Shown piece after piece: positions 22,163-28,325 of a DNA stretch of 64,000 nt. Both the position numbers and the translations under genes were made by a program. The stretch spans positions 806,001 through 870,000 of the forward strand of contig NZ_CP085990.1 in assembly GCF_020736705.1 (NCBI RefSeq), in the 5' to 3' direction. Below the pieces are notes generated by a model. The model was not told where the DNA came from. It worked only from the letters and a program-made list of their open reading frames with translations, and did not search any database. Source of the stretch: Psychrobacter sanguinis. GTDB lineage: Bacteria; Pseudomonadota; Gammaproteobacteria; Pseudomonadales; Moraxellaceae. Each line of letters starts with the position of its first letter. Position 1 is the first letter of the stretch.

Positions 22163-22197
22163 AAAATAGCCTATCTAATAAGTAGATGGGCTATTTT
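22163..22197 (+). promoter_or_regulatory. Hairpin at the start of the transposase message
   Basis: A 14-bp stem with one G-U pair: AAAATAGCCTATCT (22163-22176) and AGATGGGCTATTTT (22184-22197) with a 7-base loop. It immediately precedes the ATG at 22201 and covers the other candidate ATG at 22186. Such hairpins in several ISs block translation from read-through transcripts; that function here is inference. Confidence 0.6.
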
Positions 22198-22200
22198 ACT

Positions 22201-23502
22201 ATGAGACTACAAGACGCTATTAATGAGACGCATAAAAGGATTCCAGACACCCTAGAACAATTTAGTGAATTAATAGATCCTGACTGGATACAGCAGGCTT
22301 TAGAATATACGGGCAAAGCGAGCATTAGAAGACGTAAGCTACCTGCCGAACATGTTGTTTGGATAGTCATCGGCACAGCTTTATATCGAAACCGTTCCAT
22401 CTGGTATATCACAGAGCAAATGCGGCTTAATATAGACACACAGGCCTGCGTACCCAGCGCTGTGGTACAAGCAAGACAACGCCTCGGGTATGAGCCTCTA
22501 AAGCAGCTATTTCATCAACTAAGTGCTCACTACCAAACAGAATCACGAGCCCAGCAGCAAGACTTCATGGGACTTAGCGTCCACGCTGTAGACGGTGTCG
22601 TATACTCACTCCCATACACTGATGAGAACCTTCAGCACTTTAGCTCAAGCAAAGGCAGAACTAAAGAGGCGCCCTATCCCCAAATGCGTTCGGTATGTCT
22701 GATCAATACTGACACGCATGAGATCATTGACACAACCCTTGCAGATATGGGTCAAGGAGAGATCACCTTGGCCCATCAGCTAAATGTTGAAGACAATAGC
22801 ATTACGCTCTTTGATAGAGCCTATTTCTCAGCAGACCTACTGATTAGTTGGCAACAAGCCCATCCAAACAGCCACTGGCTCATGCGGGCTAAAGATAATC
22901 TGCGTTACACTGTGATTGAAACCTTTAGTGAAGGGGACTACTTAATACAAATGCCCGTCTCTCCTCAGGCACAAAAGAAAAATCCAAACCTACCCGATAC
23001 TTGGCAAGCTCGATTAATTGAGTGTCGTTATGAGGGTAAGACAAGACGATACATCACCTCTTTAATAGATGATAAACGCTTTACTAAGGATAAAGTGGCA
23101 CAGCTTTACTTGCAGCGCTGGGAGATCGAGATGGCTTTTAGGGAAATTAAGTCTGATTTACAGCAGGGGCTGTTGTTAAGAAGTAAGCTGCCACAGCTTG
23201 TGTTACAAGAGTTCTGGGGGCTTATGATTGCTTATAATCTGATAAGACGTTTGATGCGATATATGGCAGTTAGAGCTAAGGTTAGCCCTCTACGAATTAG
23301 CTTTCATATGGCGTCTATTACGATTGTTGATCTGTTACGGTTTGCACCTTTACAGGCTGCAGGACTCTTCCCTAAGTTGTTAGATGCACTTTTAGAGGAA
23401 GGAAAATTGTTTGTTATTCCTGAACGTAGAAAGCGATCTTGCCCGAGGGTGGTTAAGGGTAAGCCACAAAAATATCCCAAAAAAAATACCAGTCAGCCTT
23501 AA
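22201..23502 (+). CDS. IS4-family transposase
   Basis: DDE transposase of 433 aa from ATG 22201 (438 aa if ATG 22186 is used). The later start aligns with the N-terminus of E. coli IS4 transposase (MRLQDAINET versus MHIGQALDLV). Catalytic residues in 433-aa numbering are D131 (HAVDGVVYS), D205 (TLFDRAYFS) and E310 within the Y303-R306-E310-K317 signature (YLQRWEIEMAFREIK). The N-terminal RRRKLPAEHVVW and PSAVVQARQRLG segments are characteristic of the family. No frameshift or stop interrupts it, so it should be functional. A hairpin (CCAGTCAG/CTGACTGG, 23489-23510) overlaps its stop codon and the right end. Confidence 0.95.
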   Translation: MRLQDAINETHKRIPDTLEQFSELIDPDWIQQALEYTGKASIRRRKLPAEHVVWIVIGTALYRNRSIWYITEQMRLNIDTQACVPSAVVQARQRLGYEPLKQLFHQLSAHYQTESRAQQQDFMGLSVHAVDGVVYSLPYTDENLQHFSSSKGRTKEAPYPQMRSVCLINTDTHEIIDTTLADMGQGEITLAHQLNVEDNSITLFDRAYFSADLLISWQQAHPNSHWLMRAKDNLRYTVIETFSEGDYLIQMPVSPQAQKKNPNLPDTWQARLIECRYEGKTRRYITSLIDDKRFTKDKVAQLYLQRWEIEMAFREIKSDLQQGLLLRSKLPQLVLQEFWGLMIAYNLIRRLMRYMAVRAKVSPLRISFHMASITIVDLLRFAPLQAAGLFPKLLDALLEEGKLFVIPERRKRSCPRVVKGKPQKYPKKNTSQP

Positions 23503-23619: not shown

Positions 23620-25221
23620 TTAATCTAAGCGTAAACCAATAATCGCTGGGATACCTTGACGAACAACCTCAATGGTCACTACTCCCTTCTCAGGAAGCTG
23701 ACGTAATGCACGTTGAAAGTCATCAATACTAGCAATCGACTTCTGATGTAAGTTAGTAATAACATCCCCTGGTCGTAATCCTGCACGTGCCGCTATACCT
23801 GTTGGGTCCACCTCTGTGACCAACACCCCTTCTCCGCCCAATTGAGCCAAGCTTTCTTTAGGCAACGCTTGAATACGTAACCCCAGACGAATCTGACTGT
23901 TATTTGACTTGGTCACTACAGCATCAGGAGCAACCTCATCGGGAGCGACCGATAGTTTACCACTGATATTGAACTGCTTTCCTTGACGCAGTACGACAGC
24001 ATTAAAAGTATCGCCTGGCTTGCTGCGGTTAATGATATTCAATAAATCTGACGACTCTAAAATCATCTTATTGTTATATTGAATAATAATATCACCGGCT
24101 TTAAGTCCTGCCGCTTCTGCTGGAGATTTTGGTGTCACTTTGATCAGCAAGGCACCTTGAGGCTTACTTAGGCCATAGGCCTCTGCTAAGTTACGGTCGA
24201 TATCCTGTGGGAAGATACCCATGTAAGCACGCGACACTACCCCAGTTTTTTTAAGCTGCTGATAAATATCCAAAGCTTCATTAATAGGGATTGAGAAGGA
24301 CAGTCCCATATAACCGCCGGTACCACTAAAAATACGCGAGTTAATACCAATCACTTGCCCATTGCGGTTAAATAAAGGACCGCCAGAGTTACCAGGGTTT
24401 AGCGCCACATCTGACTGAATAAAGGGCACGCTGATATCACGTGAGAAGTTACGTGACTTAGCACTGACGATACCGGCAGATGCTGAATAGTCAAAACCAA
24501 AAGGAGAACCAATGGCCAATACCGGCTCACCCACTTTTACCGCATTGGAATCTCCCATGGGTAAAGCGGGATAAGATTTGCCTGGCATCGCTTTAACTTT
24601 TAACACTGCCACATCTGAGCGCTCATCACTACCCACCAACGTGGCATCTAATTCAGTACGGTCATTTAAGGTCACTGTAATCTTATCCGCACCCGCAATT
24701 ACGTGATGGTTGGTCAATAAATACCCATCTGAGGTAACAAAGAATCCCGTACCATAGTTGTATTCGATAGCCGGAGTTTGAGCGCCAGGAATACGTATTC
24801 TATCGCCGAAGAACTGACGTAACAGCTCTACCGTCTGTGCCTTAGCCAGCTCTTCTTCACTCACCTTGGTGACCACATTCACCCGAGCCACCCCTGGAGT
24901 GACCTGCTCTACCAGATCCGAAAAATCTGAGGCGACCACAGCCGCTTGTGCCACTGACGGGGCAGCAGCCGTTGCTGCTAAAGTGGCAGTCACTGCTGTA
25001 GTGCCTAATGTACCCAATCCCAAACTACTAAGCGCAAGCACTGAACCTGCACTGAATGCTTTTATATTTCGTTGCAATTTATTTAGCTTGTTAACTTTGT
25101 TCAGCCCAGTCATAGAGGTTGAGTCTAATAACGACTGTGCTGATGTATCTTCTGCCTGATACTGGATCAGGCGCTCAGCGACAATGGAAGGGTAGTTGTC
25201 TTTTTTTGAGGCACTATTCAT
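23620..25221 (-). CDS. DegP/HtrA-family periplasmic serine protease (Do-like)
   Basis: ATP-independent periplasmic quality-control protease/chaperone. From the preferred ATG at 25221 (AGGAG ten bases upstream) it has 533 aa; an upstream in-frame start would add 12 residues. A hydrophobic export segment lies at about 55-95, after an unusually long N-terminal stretch of roughly 50 polar residues. The catalytic triad is complete: H173 (TNHHVIAGAD), D203 (DERSDVAVLK) and S279 (LNPGNSGGPLF). Two PDZ domains follow (around GAFIKVTPKSPAEAAGLKAGD-like and LVTEVDPTGIAARAGLRPGD segments). The gene is monocistronic; its original terminator was disrupted by the IS insertion. Confidence 0.94.
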   Translation of the reverse strand: MNSASKKDNYPSIVAERLIQYQAEDTSAQSLLDSTSMTGLNKVNKLNKLQRNIKAFSAGSVLALSSLGLGTLGTTAVTATLAATAAAPSVAQAAVVASDFSDLVEQVTPGVARVNVVTKVSEEELAKAQTVELLRQFFGDRIRIPGAQTPAIEYNYGTGFFVTSDGYLLTNHHVIAGADKITVTLNDRTELDATLVGSDERSDVAVLKVKAMPGKSYPALPMGDSNAVKVGEPVLAIGSPFGFDYSASAGIVSAKSRNFSRDISVPFIQSDVALNPGNSGGPLFNRNGQVIGINSRIFSGTGGYMGLSFSIPINEALDIYQQLKKTGVVSRAYMGIFPQDIDRNLAEAYGLSKPQGALLIKVTPKSPAEAAGLKAGDIIIQYNNKMILESSDLLNIINRSKPGDTFNAVVLRQGKQFNISGKLSVAPDEVAPDAVVTKSNNSQIRLGLRIQALPKESLAQLGGEGVLVTEVDPTGIAARAGLRPGDVITNLHQKSIASIDDFQRALRQLPEKGVVTIEVVRQGIPAIIGLRLD

Positions 25222-25712
25222 TATTGGTATTCTCCTGGAGGGATCTGTGATGCGCATTAGGCTGGCTTCAGTACACTCAATGACCTTAATAACTTAAATT
25301 GCTTAAGTAACTTAACTAACAATACCAAGGCAAATGCCAACGCCAACCTTACCGCCACAGCGGTTAATTATTATGGCTAACAAAAATTTCTATTTATTCT
25401 CTATTCATAATAAGGGCTTTTTATAAGATACGCTAGGCACTTATATCACACCTATTCAACGCCTTAATTGCAGTTACTTTCTAATTTGGTAAACCGTTAG
25501 AAAATAACGGTCTGTTTTTAAAATCCACTATTTAAATGGCGTATAAAACCTGCTATTTTCTTAATTAACAACACTTTAATCAGTTAAATTAAATTGACCA
25601 AACGAAGACAATTGATGGCATGATTCTCACATAATTTCATTGTTTTTTTAAAAATTAACGGTTCTTTAAAGTCATCATTGGGTGATAGTATCTGATGTGT
25701 TACTTTATTTCG
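25222..25712. other. Spacer upstream of degP, no gene seen
   Basis: About 490 AT-rich bases that should contain the degP promoter. A degenerate tandem repeat of four units beginning CTTAA lies at 25285-25319. No plausible coding frame is present on either strand. Confidence 0.6.
25285..25319. repeat. Degenerate 9-bp tandem repeat in the degP leader
   Basis: Four adjacent units: CTTAATAA, CTTAAATTG, CTTAAGTAA and CTTAACTAA. The block lies 65-100 bases upstream of the degP start codon. Confidence 0.55.
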
Positions 25713-25721
25713 TGATATTAT
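25713..25721 (+). promoter_or_regulatory. Extended -10 promoter for the structured RNA segment
   Basis: TGATATTAT combines an extended-10 TG with a TATTAT hexamer. The -35 position (around 25692-25698) is poor, as allowed for extended -10 promoters. Transcription would begin near 25728. Confidence 0.5.
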
Positions 25722-25727
25722 AGTCCT

Positions 25728-25948
25728 ACTTAACCCTAGTTTCTTTTGCTTAGGGTGTCAACAGTTGACCTAGAGACGGCCATTATTCGTCGTCAACTCA
25801 TGGTTAAAGTCTATATCTGACTTTAAGACTGTTGAATCAATTCCGTTAACGTAGAGTAACTGCTATAAACCGTTGGTTAATTAAAATAAATATTTATAGC
25901 ACAAGCTACATTAACAAAGCCTAGTCGTCATTCACTAGGCTTTTTTTT
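25728..25948 (+). ncRNA. Candidate structured RNA ending in an intrinsic terminator (small RNA or antiporter leader)
   Basis: This roughly 220-base non-coding stretch contains five consecutive hairpins. H1 is ACCCTA/TAGGGT (25733-25756). H2 is AGTTGAC/GTCAACT (25763-25798) with an inner GACG/CGTC stem and a 5-base bulge. H3 is TTAAAGTC/GACTTTAA (25804-25826). H4 is TGCTATAAA/TTTATAGCA (25861-25901). H5 is AAAGCCTAGT/ACTAGGCTTT (25916-25943), running into eight T residues. An extended -10 lies just upstream. It resembles neither 6S RNA, tmRNA, SRP RNA nor RNase P RNA as I know them. It may be an independent sRNA or a terminator-controlled 5' leader of the antiporter gene that starts 107 bases further on. 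The exact 5' end is inferred. Confidence 0.55.
25916..25948 (+). terminator. Intrinsic terminator at the end of the structured RNA
   Basis: Perfect 10-bp stem AAAGCCTAGT / ACTAGGCTTT, 8-base loop and eight T residues. No protein gene precedes it on this strand for more than 2 kb. Confidence 0.88.
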
Positions 25949-26054
25949 ACAGTGTCTATCTGTCTCTCCCTATCTAACCCTATTTAAACTTGCAGAATTT
26001 AGCGCATGCTGACTGCTTGACTGGGACTCGACACTGCAAACACAAGGATTTTTT

Positions 26055-28325
26055 ATGGATACCGCCTTATTATTATCTGGCGTGGTTGGGTTAGGCATTG
26101 CAGCGCAATGGCTGGCTTGGTATTTAAAACAGCCGTCAATTTTGTTTTTACTTCTAATTGGTATTTTTATTGGCCCAATAATGAATTATTTTGACCCAGA
26201 TGCGGTCATTGGTGATTTGTTATTCCCATTTATCTCTTTGGGCGTGGCGATTATTTTATTTGAAGGCTCGCTGACTTTAGAGTTTGAGGAAATTAAGCAG
26301 CACGGTAAAGTAGTTCAGATGCTGGTATCGGTAGGCGTGGTAATTACCATTGCTATAGTCGCCCTGTCCACTTACTTGCTGTTTGACGTTGACCCACTCA
26401 TTGCCTTACTTTTCGGGTCCTTGGTCTGTGTGACCGGCCCTACAGTTATCATGCCGTTACTGCGCAGTGTGCGCCCCAATAAGACCATCTCCAACATCTT
26501 AAAGTGGGAAGGTATTATCATCGACCCCGTGGGCGCTATCGCTGTGGTATTGGTGTACGAGTATATTATTTCAGGCGGCGAAGCCAACAGCATTTTCTTG
26601 TTTGCTGAAATCGTCATTATTGCCACTGCCATTGGTATGTTTGGTGCTTTTGTGTTGGCCAATCTTATCAAGCGCCACATGATTCCTGAATTCTTACACA
26701 ACGTTTTTACCTTAGCCTTTGTGCTATTACTGTTCTCAATATCCAACCATTTAGAGCACGAATCGGGTCTCTTGGCTGTGACCGTGATGGGCGTCGCCTT
26801 AGCCAACTGGAAAGGCTTCCCACGCGAGCAAATTCTTGAATTTAATGAGTCACTAACTGTCTTATTAATTTCAGTACTGTTTATTGTTTTGGCCGCACGC
26901 GTTGAGCTAGACAGCTTATTAAGCGTTGGTTTCCAAGGTCTAGTGCTCTTAGCTATCGTAATGTTCATCGCCCGTCCACTTTCGGTTTGGGTTTCTTCGA
27001 TGGGATCAAATTTAAAGACCTCTGAGAAGATGATGATCAGCTGGATTGGCCCTCGCGGTATCGTCGCCGCCGCCATTTCATCTCTATTTGCCATTCGTCT
27101 TCAAGAATATGATATTCAGGGGGTAGAGCTATTAGTACCTCTAGTATTTATGGTTATTATTGGCACAGTGTTGATTCAAGGTCTAGGGGCCAAAATGGTG
27201 GGCAACCTGTTGGGTGTGCGTGAGCCTGCCAGTAACGGGGTATTAATTGTTGGCTCAAATCCTGTGGCACTGAAAGTAGCAGAAGCGCTTCAAGAGCAAG
27301 GCTTCGATGTGTTAGTGGCGCATAACAACTATACCAATATCTCCAAAGCGCGTATGTCTGGGCTGCGCACTTACTTTGGTAACCCTATCTCTGACCATGC
27401 CGACCGTCATCTAGATTTAATCGGAATTGGCCATCTATTTGCCATGAGCACCGATAAAGAAATGAACACGTTGTCAGAGCTTCACTATCGTCATGAATTT
27501 GGTGAACAGAAAATTTACCGTTTAAAATTCGCTGAAGATAAAACCAAGACTGAAAGAGAAAGCAAACGTTCTAGCTTTAATTCTCGCTGGCTGTTTGGGA
27601 AAGATGTCACCTATACCAAAATGGCCAGTATGCTGTCTAAAAAGGCCCGAGTGAAGATTACCAATATTACTGACAGCTATAGCTACAATCAGTATCGTGC
27701 CGATAATAAGCAATTTGTGCCGCTATTTACTATTGATAAAGAAGGCCATTTGCATGTGATTACCGACAGTTTTGAAAACGAGATTCCTCGTGACCATAAG
27801 CTGGTTGCTTTGGTAATTGAAGATGAAGTGCAACCCAAACCAGTGGACGTCACTGAAAAACAGAATCAGGCCCGTGCCTTAGCGGACTTACAATTTAAGT
27901 CCACTTCTAAGAGCCCAGAGAAGCGCAAAGAAAAGACCTTAAGTGATGATGTACGTGATCCTATGTATGCCCCTAATGCTAAAGGTAGCAATGAGGTTAA
28001 AGCTAACAATGAGATGAAAGAAAGTGTTTTTGATACCGAGCTACTTTCTGACAAGGCAAGTGACACTCTTCCCTCTACTCATTCAGTCCCTGTTACGCCT
28101 TTAGAAGCCACTTTGGCAACTAAGCTTGAGAAAAAGCTACAGAAGCAAACTGAAATTGTTCAGGAAAACGCTAAGCCTACCAAATCCTCAGCATCGAGAA
28201 AGTCACTCCAGTCGCAAGACAATGGTAACTCACAAGCCCCTCGACAGGCCAACGGCTCGTTAGATCCTGAACGTCTTCCTGATACTCAGGCCCGTAAAGA
28301 CAGTGCGGAACACAAGAATGCTTAG
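26055..28325 (+). CDS. CPA1-type cation/proton antiporter with a TrkA-N-like domain
   Basis: Inner-membrane Na+ (or K+)/H+ antiporter of 756 aa. About 12 membrane segments occupy residues 1-390. Conserved antiporter motifs include LFEGSLTLEFEEI, VTGPTVIMPLL (about 126-136) and EGIIIDPVGAI with likely ion-binding D157. A Rossmann domain (about 395-510) begins NGVLIVGSNPVALKVAEAL, resembling nucleotide-binding TrkA-N/RCK domains that gate K+ transport. Residues from about 600 to the end are highly charged, low in complexity and probably disordered, an unusual tail. A leader with a structured RNA and terminator precedes it; a terminator follows at 28378-28406. Na+ versus K+ specificity cannot be read from sequence. 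Confidence 0.88.
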   Translation: MDTALLLSGVVGLGIAAQWLAWYLKQPSILFLLLIGIFIGPIMNYFDPDAVIGDLLFPFISLGVAIILFEGSLTLEFEEIKQHGKVVQMLVSVGVVITIAIVALSTYLLFDVDPLIALLFGSLVCVTGPTVIMPLLRSVRPNKTISNILKWEGIIIDPVGAIAVVLVYEYIISGGEANSIFLFAEIVIIATAIGMFGAFVLANLIKRHMIPEFLHNVFTLAFVLLLFSISNHLEHESGLLAVTVMGVALANWKGFPREQILEFNESLTVLLISVLFIVLAARVELDSLLSVGFQGLVLLAIVMFIARPLSVWVSSMGSNLKTSEKMMISWIGPRGIVAAAISSLFAIRLQEYDIQGVELLVPLVFMVIIGTVLIQGLGAKMVGNLLGVREPASNGVLIVGSNPVALKVAEALQEQGFDVLVAHNNYTNISKARMSGLRTYFGNPISDHADRHLDLIGIGHLFAMSTDKEMNTLSELHYRHEFGEQKIYRLKFAEDKTKTERESKRSSFNSRWLFGKDVTYTKMASMLSKKARVKITNITDSYSYNQYRADNKQFVPLFTIDKEGHLHVITDSFENEIPRDHKLVALVIEDEVQPKPVDVTEKQNQARALADLQFKSTSKSPEKRKEKTLSDDVRDPMYAPNAKGSNEVKANNEMKESVFDTELLSDKASDTLPSTHSVPVTPLEATLATKLEKKLQKQTEIVQENAKPTKSSASRKSLQSQDNGNSQAPRQANGSLDPERLPDTQARKDSAEHKNA

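Follow-up and report, generated by a model that had tools for sequence, protein, structure and literature searches.

An apparently undescribed structured RNA, probably a leader attenuator, upstream of a cation/proton antiporter gene in Psychrobacter sanguinis

The intergenic region and its predicted fold

The window analysed here is a stretch of 64,000 nucleotides from Psychrobacter sanguinis, and it contains, between a divergent htrA gene and an antiporter gene, an intergenic region in which an extended −10 element (25713-25721) is followed by sequence that folds and then by an intrinsic terminator (25916-25948) (Table 1). The extended −10, TGATATTAT, had been placed just before the folded segment by the initial annotation, and this is where we find it. 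Two further claims about the gene order also hold: no protein gene precedes the terminator on its own strand, the nearest gene-length open reading frame upstream being htrA on the minus strand, and the antiporter starts downstream of the terminator, with its ATG at 26055 and the last of the eight T residues at 25948. The htrA gene points away from the antiporter in all eight loci of the clade described below and in 71 of the 72 named loci of Psychrobacter, the one miss being a locus (L098) with only 951 upstream bases. Since htrA is divergent and no neighbouring gene needs a terminator, the latter most likely ends a transcript that begins at the intergenic promoter. A match to the antiporter is found in all 105 genomes of the genus, albeit a partial one in some. 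Beyond htrA, at 22186-23502, lies an open reading frame of 438 amino acids, presumably an IS4-type transposase from its appearance, for which the 88 upstream flanks searched hold no relative.

Table 1. Coordinates of the features at the locus, in window numbering
Feature	Positions	Strand	Basis or remark
Divergent htrA/degP-type serine protease gene	23620-25257	-	TIGR02037 above cut-off
Promoter block TTACTTTATTTCGTGATATTATA with extended −10	25700-25722	+	TG 25713-25714, TATTAT 25716-25721; conserved
P1, 5' hairpin with pyrimidine-rich loop	25733-25756	+	90% of cells paired, no double change
GTGTCAACAGT block, conserved, 5' side of P2	25755-25765	+	alignment A1, conservation by segment
P2, branched domain	25758-25835	+	closed by 25758-25766 with 25827-25835; minimum-energy fold
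P4, long hairpin directly abutting the terminator	25845-25915	+	six pairs with double changes; RNAalifold
T, intrinsic terminator	25916-25948	+	stem-loop 25916-25943, eight T 25941-25948
PP, post-terminator helix	25950-26036	+	25950-25956/26030-26036 and 25967-25970/26023-26026
Shine-Dalgarno AAGGA	26044-26048	+	sequence; block with 19 of 21 columns invariant (five species)
Antiporter gene	26055-28325	+	756 aa; Pfam Na_H_Exchanger and TrkA_N; cation/proton antiporter

The RNA spanning 25728-25952 folds with a predicted free energy of −61.7 kcal/mol (z −5.29), a value reached by none of 200 dinucleotide shuffles, and when it is cut before the terminator (25728-25910) it still has a z of −3.0, again with none of 200 shuffles as good. 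Folded as single sequences, the bodies from the five species that carry the element are uneven, with z of −3.3 for the window and −2.5, −2.2, −0.5 and −3.5 for the other four. As far as sequence analysis can tell, the structured RNA element is genuine.

Five consecutive hairpins had been proposed for this segment, and they fared differently. The first, P1, is borne out: it is formed by ACCCTAG and TTAGGGT with a bulge, and lies some 5 nt from the presumed 5' end. The last, the terminator stem with its run of eight T residues, is likewise confirmed. The second and third (25763-25798 and 25804-25826) are predicted inside P2 in this genome, but not as independent, conserved elements: on homologous columns in two alignments, the second keeps 0-2 of its seven pairs and the third 0-3 of its eight in the four orthologs, which lack a 17-base stretch in this region. 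These inner hairpins of P2 are particular to the window genome; the outer stem, by comparison, retains six or seven of its nine pairs in the four orthologs, with one double change. The fourth (25861-25901) is indeed paired, but it is not the whole of the element, being the upper part of the longer hairpin P4. Because P4 ends immediately before the terminator, the two may stack upon one another. Finally, helix PP begins one base after the U-run, and it can, therefore, exist only in RNA that extends past the terminator.

Conservation, clade distribution and known RNAs

At the DNA level, matches to the element were found in 11 of the 105 genus genomes, the window's own included: near full-length in P. 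pasteurii (G005), P. phenylpyruvicus (G023) and P. piechaudii (G081), to the 3' part in a metagenome-assembled genome (bin7, G105), for which the alignment shows the whole leader, and to short fragments in six others. Four further species of Psychrobacter thus carry the element in an equivalent position, and alignment of orthologous regions, which had been suggested as a check, reveals both conservation in these four and paired changes. A covariance model of the five sequences, which score above 170 bits by construction, returned the same five matches at this level from 105 genus and 348 family genomes; all of these lie before the antiporter gene, and no other match exceeds 39 bits. Weak matches are widespread: with the five included, they occur at E ≤ 1 in 70 of the 105 genomes searched in the genus and at E ≤ 0.1 in 123 of the 348 in the family. 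The best of them (38.8 and 34.3 bits) were rejected, as outside a terminator their sequence aligns poorly; two at 29 bits, in G035 and G085, lie before the antiporter, and the remainder are taken to be terminators. Similar terminators (L157-L176) are seen as weak matches elsewhere in the genus and family genomes, often on both strands of one site.

The invariant columns across the five species are distributed as follows: 34 of 200 before the promoter, 19 of 28 within it, 27 of 40 across P1 and the GTGTCAACAGT block, 18 of 78 for the remainder of P2, 26 of 73 in P4, 20 of 33 in the terminator and 35 of 99 beyond it. Ahead of the ribosome site, conservation is, therefore, highest in the promoter, the 5' 40 nt and the terminator; the sequence of P4 drifts while its fold is kept. 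For the named structure, counted over five sequences, three of which are closely related, and derived from the same sequence-only alignment (A1) on which it was counted, 93.3% of the 282 cells of its 57 pairs can pair, and nine pairs have changed on both sides. None of 500 shuffles reaches its pairing percentage, its double changes or its covariation score, and 11 of 500 reach its pair types; slid versions of the structure pair at 27-44%. Relative to column-shuffled alignments, RNAalifold gives z of −4.6 for the body without the terminator (0 of 200 shuffles as good), −2.9 for the 5' half (2 of 200), −7.9 for P4 (0 of 200) and −2.9 for the post-terminator region (0 of 200). Taken alone, P4 and the terminator contain eight pairs with double changes (0 of 500 shuffles). 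The signal for PP is modest: all 55 of its cells pair in the five species and two pairs show double changes, a result matched by 19 of 500 shuffles.

When 37 antiporters are placed in a tree by their first 600 residues, eight species cluster together (support 94/99, and 93% of 200 bootstrap trees), represented by genomes G000, G085, G005, G023, G105, G035, G081 and G077. The antiporters of the other seven are 86-88% identical to that of the window over their full length, whereas most other full-length matches are 73-77% identical, with shorter ones reaching 88%. For comparison of upstream sequences, 89 distinct regions were compiled; they derive from 122 loci, made up of 72 named loci and those of 50 among the 105 genus genomes, with overlap between the two sets. 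In all eight clade members, the antiporter ATG is preceded by the promoter and by a terminator of the CCTAG/CTAGG type; a loose energy scan detects a terminator-like hairpin in 17 of the 89 regions, the CCTAG type being confined to these eight. The distance from the presumed start to the end of the terminator is 203-222 nt in the five species with the element, but 83 nt in G085, 283 nt in P. lutiphocae and 389 nt in G035, and in these three the promoter and terminator are kept while P1-P4 are not seen. G035 and P. lutiphocae pair in the tree and G085 branches first, although the forks are partly unresolved; judged from these sequences, both a single gain followed by later loss and a single gain in the five would fit.

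The element has no counterpart among the families that we searched. With cmscan and all Rfam 15 families, only two tRNAs reach the gathering score in the window, and none of the eight clade loci (the window and seven relatives) has a match at this level, so that the Infernal check proposed earlier yields no family for the segment or its relatives. A permissive scan (to E 5) of 25400-26200 gave 11 matches (E 0.5-4), all of them below gathering and none to the Na+-I, Li+-I or Li+-II riboswitch families. The earlier statement that 6S, tmRNA, SRP, RNase P, ykoK and yybP-ykoY are not matched is upheld by both scans; Rfam presumably holds models for these and for the three alkali-ion classes. The intergenic small RNAs SdsR and MicC have a promoter-hairpins-terminator layout in common with the element, but their scores (20.3 against a gathering score of 38, and 19.1 against 90, respectively) fall far short, and what aligns well in each match is the terminator. 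The plasmid collection contains no match to the element, and no viral contig has the exact 17-base core. Listings from the open-licence PubMed Central literature on small RNAs, leaders, transcription start sites, riboswitches and untranslated regions in Psychrobacter, and on attenuation of proton antiporters, show no description of it. Terminator-type leader attenuators combine their own promoter, a folded leader and an intrinsic terminator before the coding region; the layout here is the same, albeit with no conserved leader peptide, conserved anti-terminator or known factor. The initial proposal of an undescribed structured RNA upstream of an antiporter gene is thus sustained by the lack of an Rfam family, conservation in four other species, the paired changes and the column-shuffle tests; the element is apparently undescribed and narrowly distributed, new as a family but familiar as a kind.

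The promoter

The promoter block, allowing up to two mismatches, occurs in six of the 105 genus genomes, in one copy each and always upstream of the antiporter. The more general pattern TG.TAT.AT is located at most 600 nt before the antiporter ATG in 85 of the 89 distinct regions, as against 13.9 in shuffles, and a stricter form in 70, as against 1.15; among the four regions without the pattern, that of G035 (L021) carries it at 603. The plain pattern also turns up on the other strand in 50 of the 89, in part owing to the near-palindromic nature of the block, and the strict form is, therefore, the better measure. In the window, 25722-25717 on that strand is TATAAT, and ATCATGnTATGATAACA, the form found in the genus, becomes TGTTATCAT when reversed; from this near-symmetry, the block may be bidirectional and serve htrA too. 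A hexamer scan of 25200-26500 found no sigma-70 two-hexamer site, with 4.0 expected by chance, so the promoter assignment rests on the extended −10 and its conservation. From its position, transcription is estimated to start near 25728.

After the terminator, no sigma-70 site better than chance was found in the five species (44-186 of 200 letter shuffles as good), whereas G085 has a good promoter-like site there (5 of 200). In the five species the upstream block scores 6.0-9.6 and the sites beyond the terminator 6.2-9.7; as the block does no better than these sites, the promoter score is weak evidence. A motif, TTTTGTC(T/C), is present in 46 of the 89 regions, about 90-300 nt before the antiporter ATG, mostly as part of a longer block of the type GCTTTTGTCTTTACTACTTTATAGTA.TATATCATATC with the appearance of a proximal promoter (examples include L030, L101, L111, L129 and L136), with a preceding hairpin in a subset. 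A genus-wide hairpin before TTTTGTCT, suggested by eye from that subset, was rejected: 19 non-redundant sequences out of 45 gave no consensus fold (energy 0, z 0.09).

Attenuation and its alternatives

We favour, with moderate confidence, the reading that this RNA would be the 5' leader of the antiporter mRNA and act as a transcription attenuator. RNA polymerase would start at the extended −10 promoter, and the leader would fold into P1, P2 and P4; by default, transcription would stop at the terminator to give an RNA of ~220 nt, whereas a fraction of polymerases would read through, allowing PP to form and the antiporter to be translated from the AAGGA/ATG. The antiporter would probably be expressed only when RNA polymerase passes the terminator, and P1, near the 5' end, probably also stabilises the RNA. 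Read-through may be regulated, presumably by a factor not visible in the sequence. The leader reading is preferred because the promoter accompanies the antiporter throughout the genus, htrA is divergent and PP needs read-through RNA; the absence of a better-than-chance promoter after the terminator in the five species is a weaker, fourth support, and the promoter-like site in G085 counts against it. The promoter is upstream of the terminator and goes with the downstream gene (85 of 89 regions), and the terminator falls between the presumed start and the ATG with no other gene to end. It is also the default state: across the eight species its arms pair with a mean probability of 0.86-0.98, and in every one holding the 5' arm open carries a penalty of 9-13 kcal/mol.

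What was not found is a mutually exclusive anti-terminator, in that no upstream helix of at least five pairs common to at least four of the five species competes with the terminator. Protein-dependent antitermination would need none. As no alternative fold is conserved, control by a protein or another factor acting in trans is somewhat likelier than sensing by a ligand-binding RNA. The idea of a prematurely terminated leader in the initial annotation gains from the conserved promoter, the divergent neighbour and the post-terminator helix, but not from any conserved switch between folds. Before the 3' arm of the terminator is made, its 5' arm would be paired upstream, with partners that differ, at a mean probability of 0.27-0.68 in seven species and 0.09 in the window; such pairing may allow a kinetic effect. 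Two candidate pairings were discarded: that between the 5' arm of P1 and the 3' arm of the terminator, possible by eye in the window but, also by eye, broken in P. phenylpyruvicus and bin7, is not among the helices common to at least four of the five, whereas that between the 5' arm of the terminator and the region before the Shine-Dalgarno (four of five species) cannot act before the terminator is made. Additionally, GGTGTC in the leader may pair with GACACT before the Shine-Dalgarno in four of the five. As regards ribosome-mediated attenuation by a leader peptide, no reading frame of at least 10 codons is common in position and product to all five species; P. phenylpyruvicus and P. piechaudii have a common ATG frame of 33 codons lacking a Shine-Dalgarno, which is absent from the window and bin7.

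Rather unlikely, though to be taken seriously, is that the ~220 nt would be an independent small RNA that acts in trans, equipped with a promoter and terminator of its own and a P1/GTGTCAACAGT core, the antiporter promoter lying elsewhere. The unit is complete from promoter to terminator; its promoter, 5' 40 nt and terminator are the best conserved before the ribosome site and the default fold terminates, and both the post-terminator site in G085 and the proximal-promoter-like TTTTGTC(T/C) block could provide the separate antiporter promoter. However, strong model matches occur only before the antiporter gene, the promoter block accompanies this gene across the genus even where the RNA is absent, PP keeps pairing 3' of the terminator and, for what this weak test is worth, the five species show no above-chance promoter signal beyond the terminator. 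A related proposal, which we consider unlikely, is a new class of regulatory RNA, specific to the clade, whose P1/GTGTCAACAGT core and P4 would sense an ion, pH or a protein and set read-through into the antiporter gene, the 220-nt leader perhaps acting as a small RNA as well.

Quite improbable, in our view, is a constitutive, unregulated partial terminator that simply lowers antiporter expression while the leader drifts: the start-to-terminator length varies from 83 to 389 nt among the eight species with promoter and terminator constant, and no alternative fold was found, but the conserved structure of P4 and sequence of P1 in five species are unexpected under drift.

The suggestion of an ion- or pH-responsive element gains no support, given that the eight species offer no competing fold within 9 kcal/mol of the terminated state, no anti-terminator is conserved and three of the eight clade members lack the leader body; for the last two reasons, an ion- or pH-sensing riboswitch is unproven. 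Li+ riboswitches commonly control nhaA genes (PMC9646797) and, in the Na+-I riboswitch (DUF1646 motif), the aptamer stem excludes the stem of an intrinsic terminator (PMC9337991). Like Na+-I and Li+-I/Li+-II (nhaA-I, nhaA-II) (PMC9337991, PMC9646797), the RNA described here would be a leader controlling a cation transporter gene, and in common with Na+-I it has an intrinsic terminator (PMC9337991); in contrast to all three, it has no covariance-model match and no conserved terminator-excluding stem, and its strong matches are confined to one small clade. A new class of such riboswitch is very improbable: the gene type fits the known alkali-ion targets (PMC9646797, PMC9337991), a conserved folded body stands ahead of the terminator and its 5' arm would be paired upstream beforehand in seven of eight species, albeit with differing partners, but no Rfam family reaches the gathering score, the mutual exclusion of terminator and aptamer on which Na+-I is built (PMC9337991) is not conserved, strong matches are limited to five species and missing in three close relatives, and the window itself has a low 5'-arm probability.

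If read-through is regulated, as the attenuator reading allows, the leader would be a young RNA switch acting on a cation/proton antiporter in one small clade; with the promoter and gene genus-wide and the switch in a single clade, it would be a good case for asking how control by terminators comes about. Alignment of the five species, together with the series of promoters and terminators from eight, makes the question directly testable. The antiporter itself presents two further features. Over its first ~590 residues it is 68-70% identical to proteins from Avibacterium, Bisgaardia and Otariodibacter (L137, L140-L143 and L145), a high value for another family, and it may, therefore, have been subject to horizontal transfer. 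Its C-terminus is variable: leaving out three fragments (G014, G021 and G087), the match stops at residue 626-654 in 12 of the 105 genus genomes.
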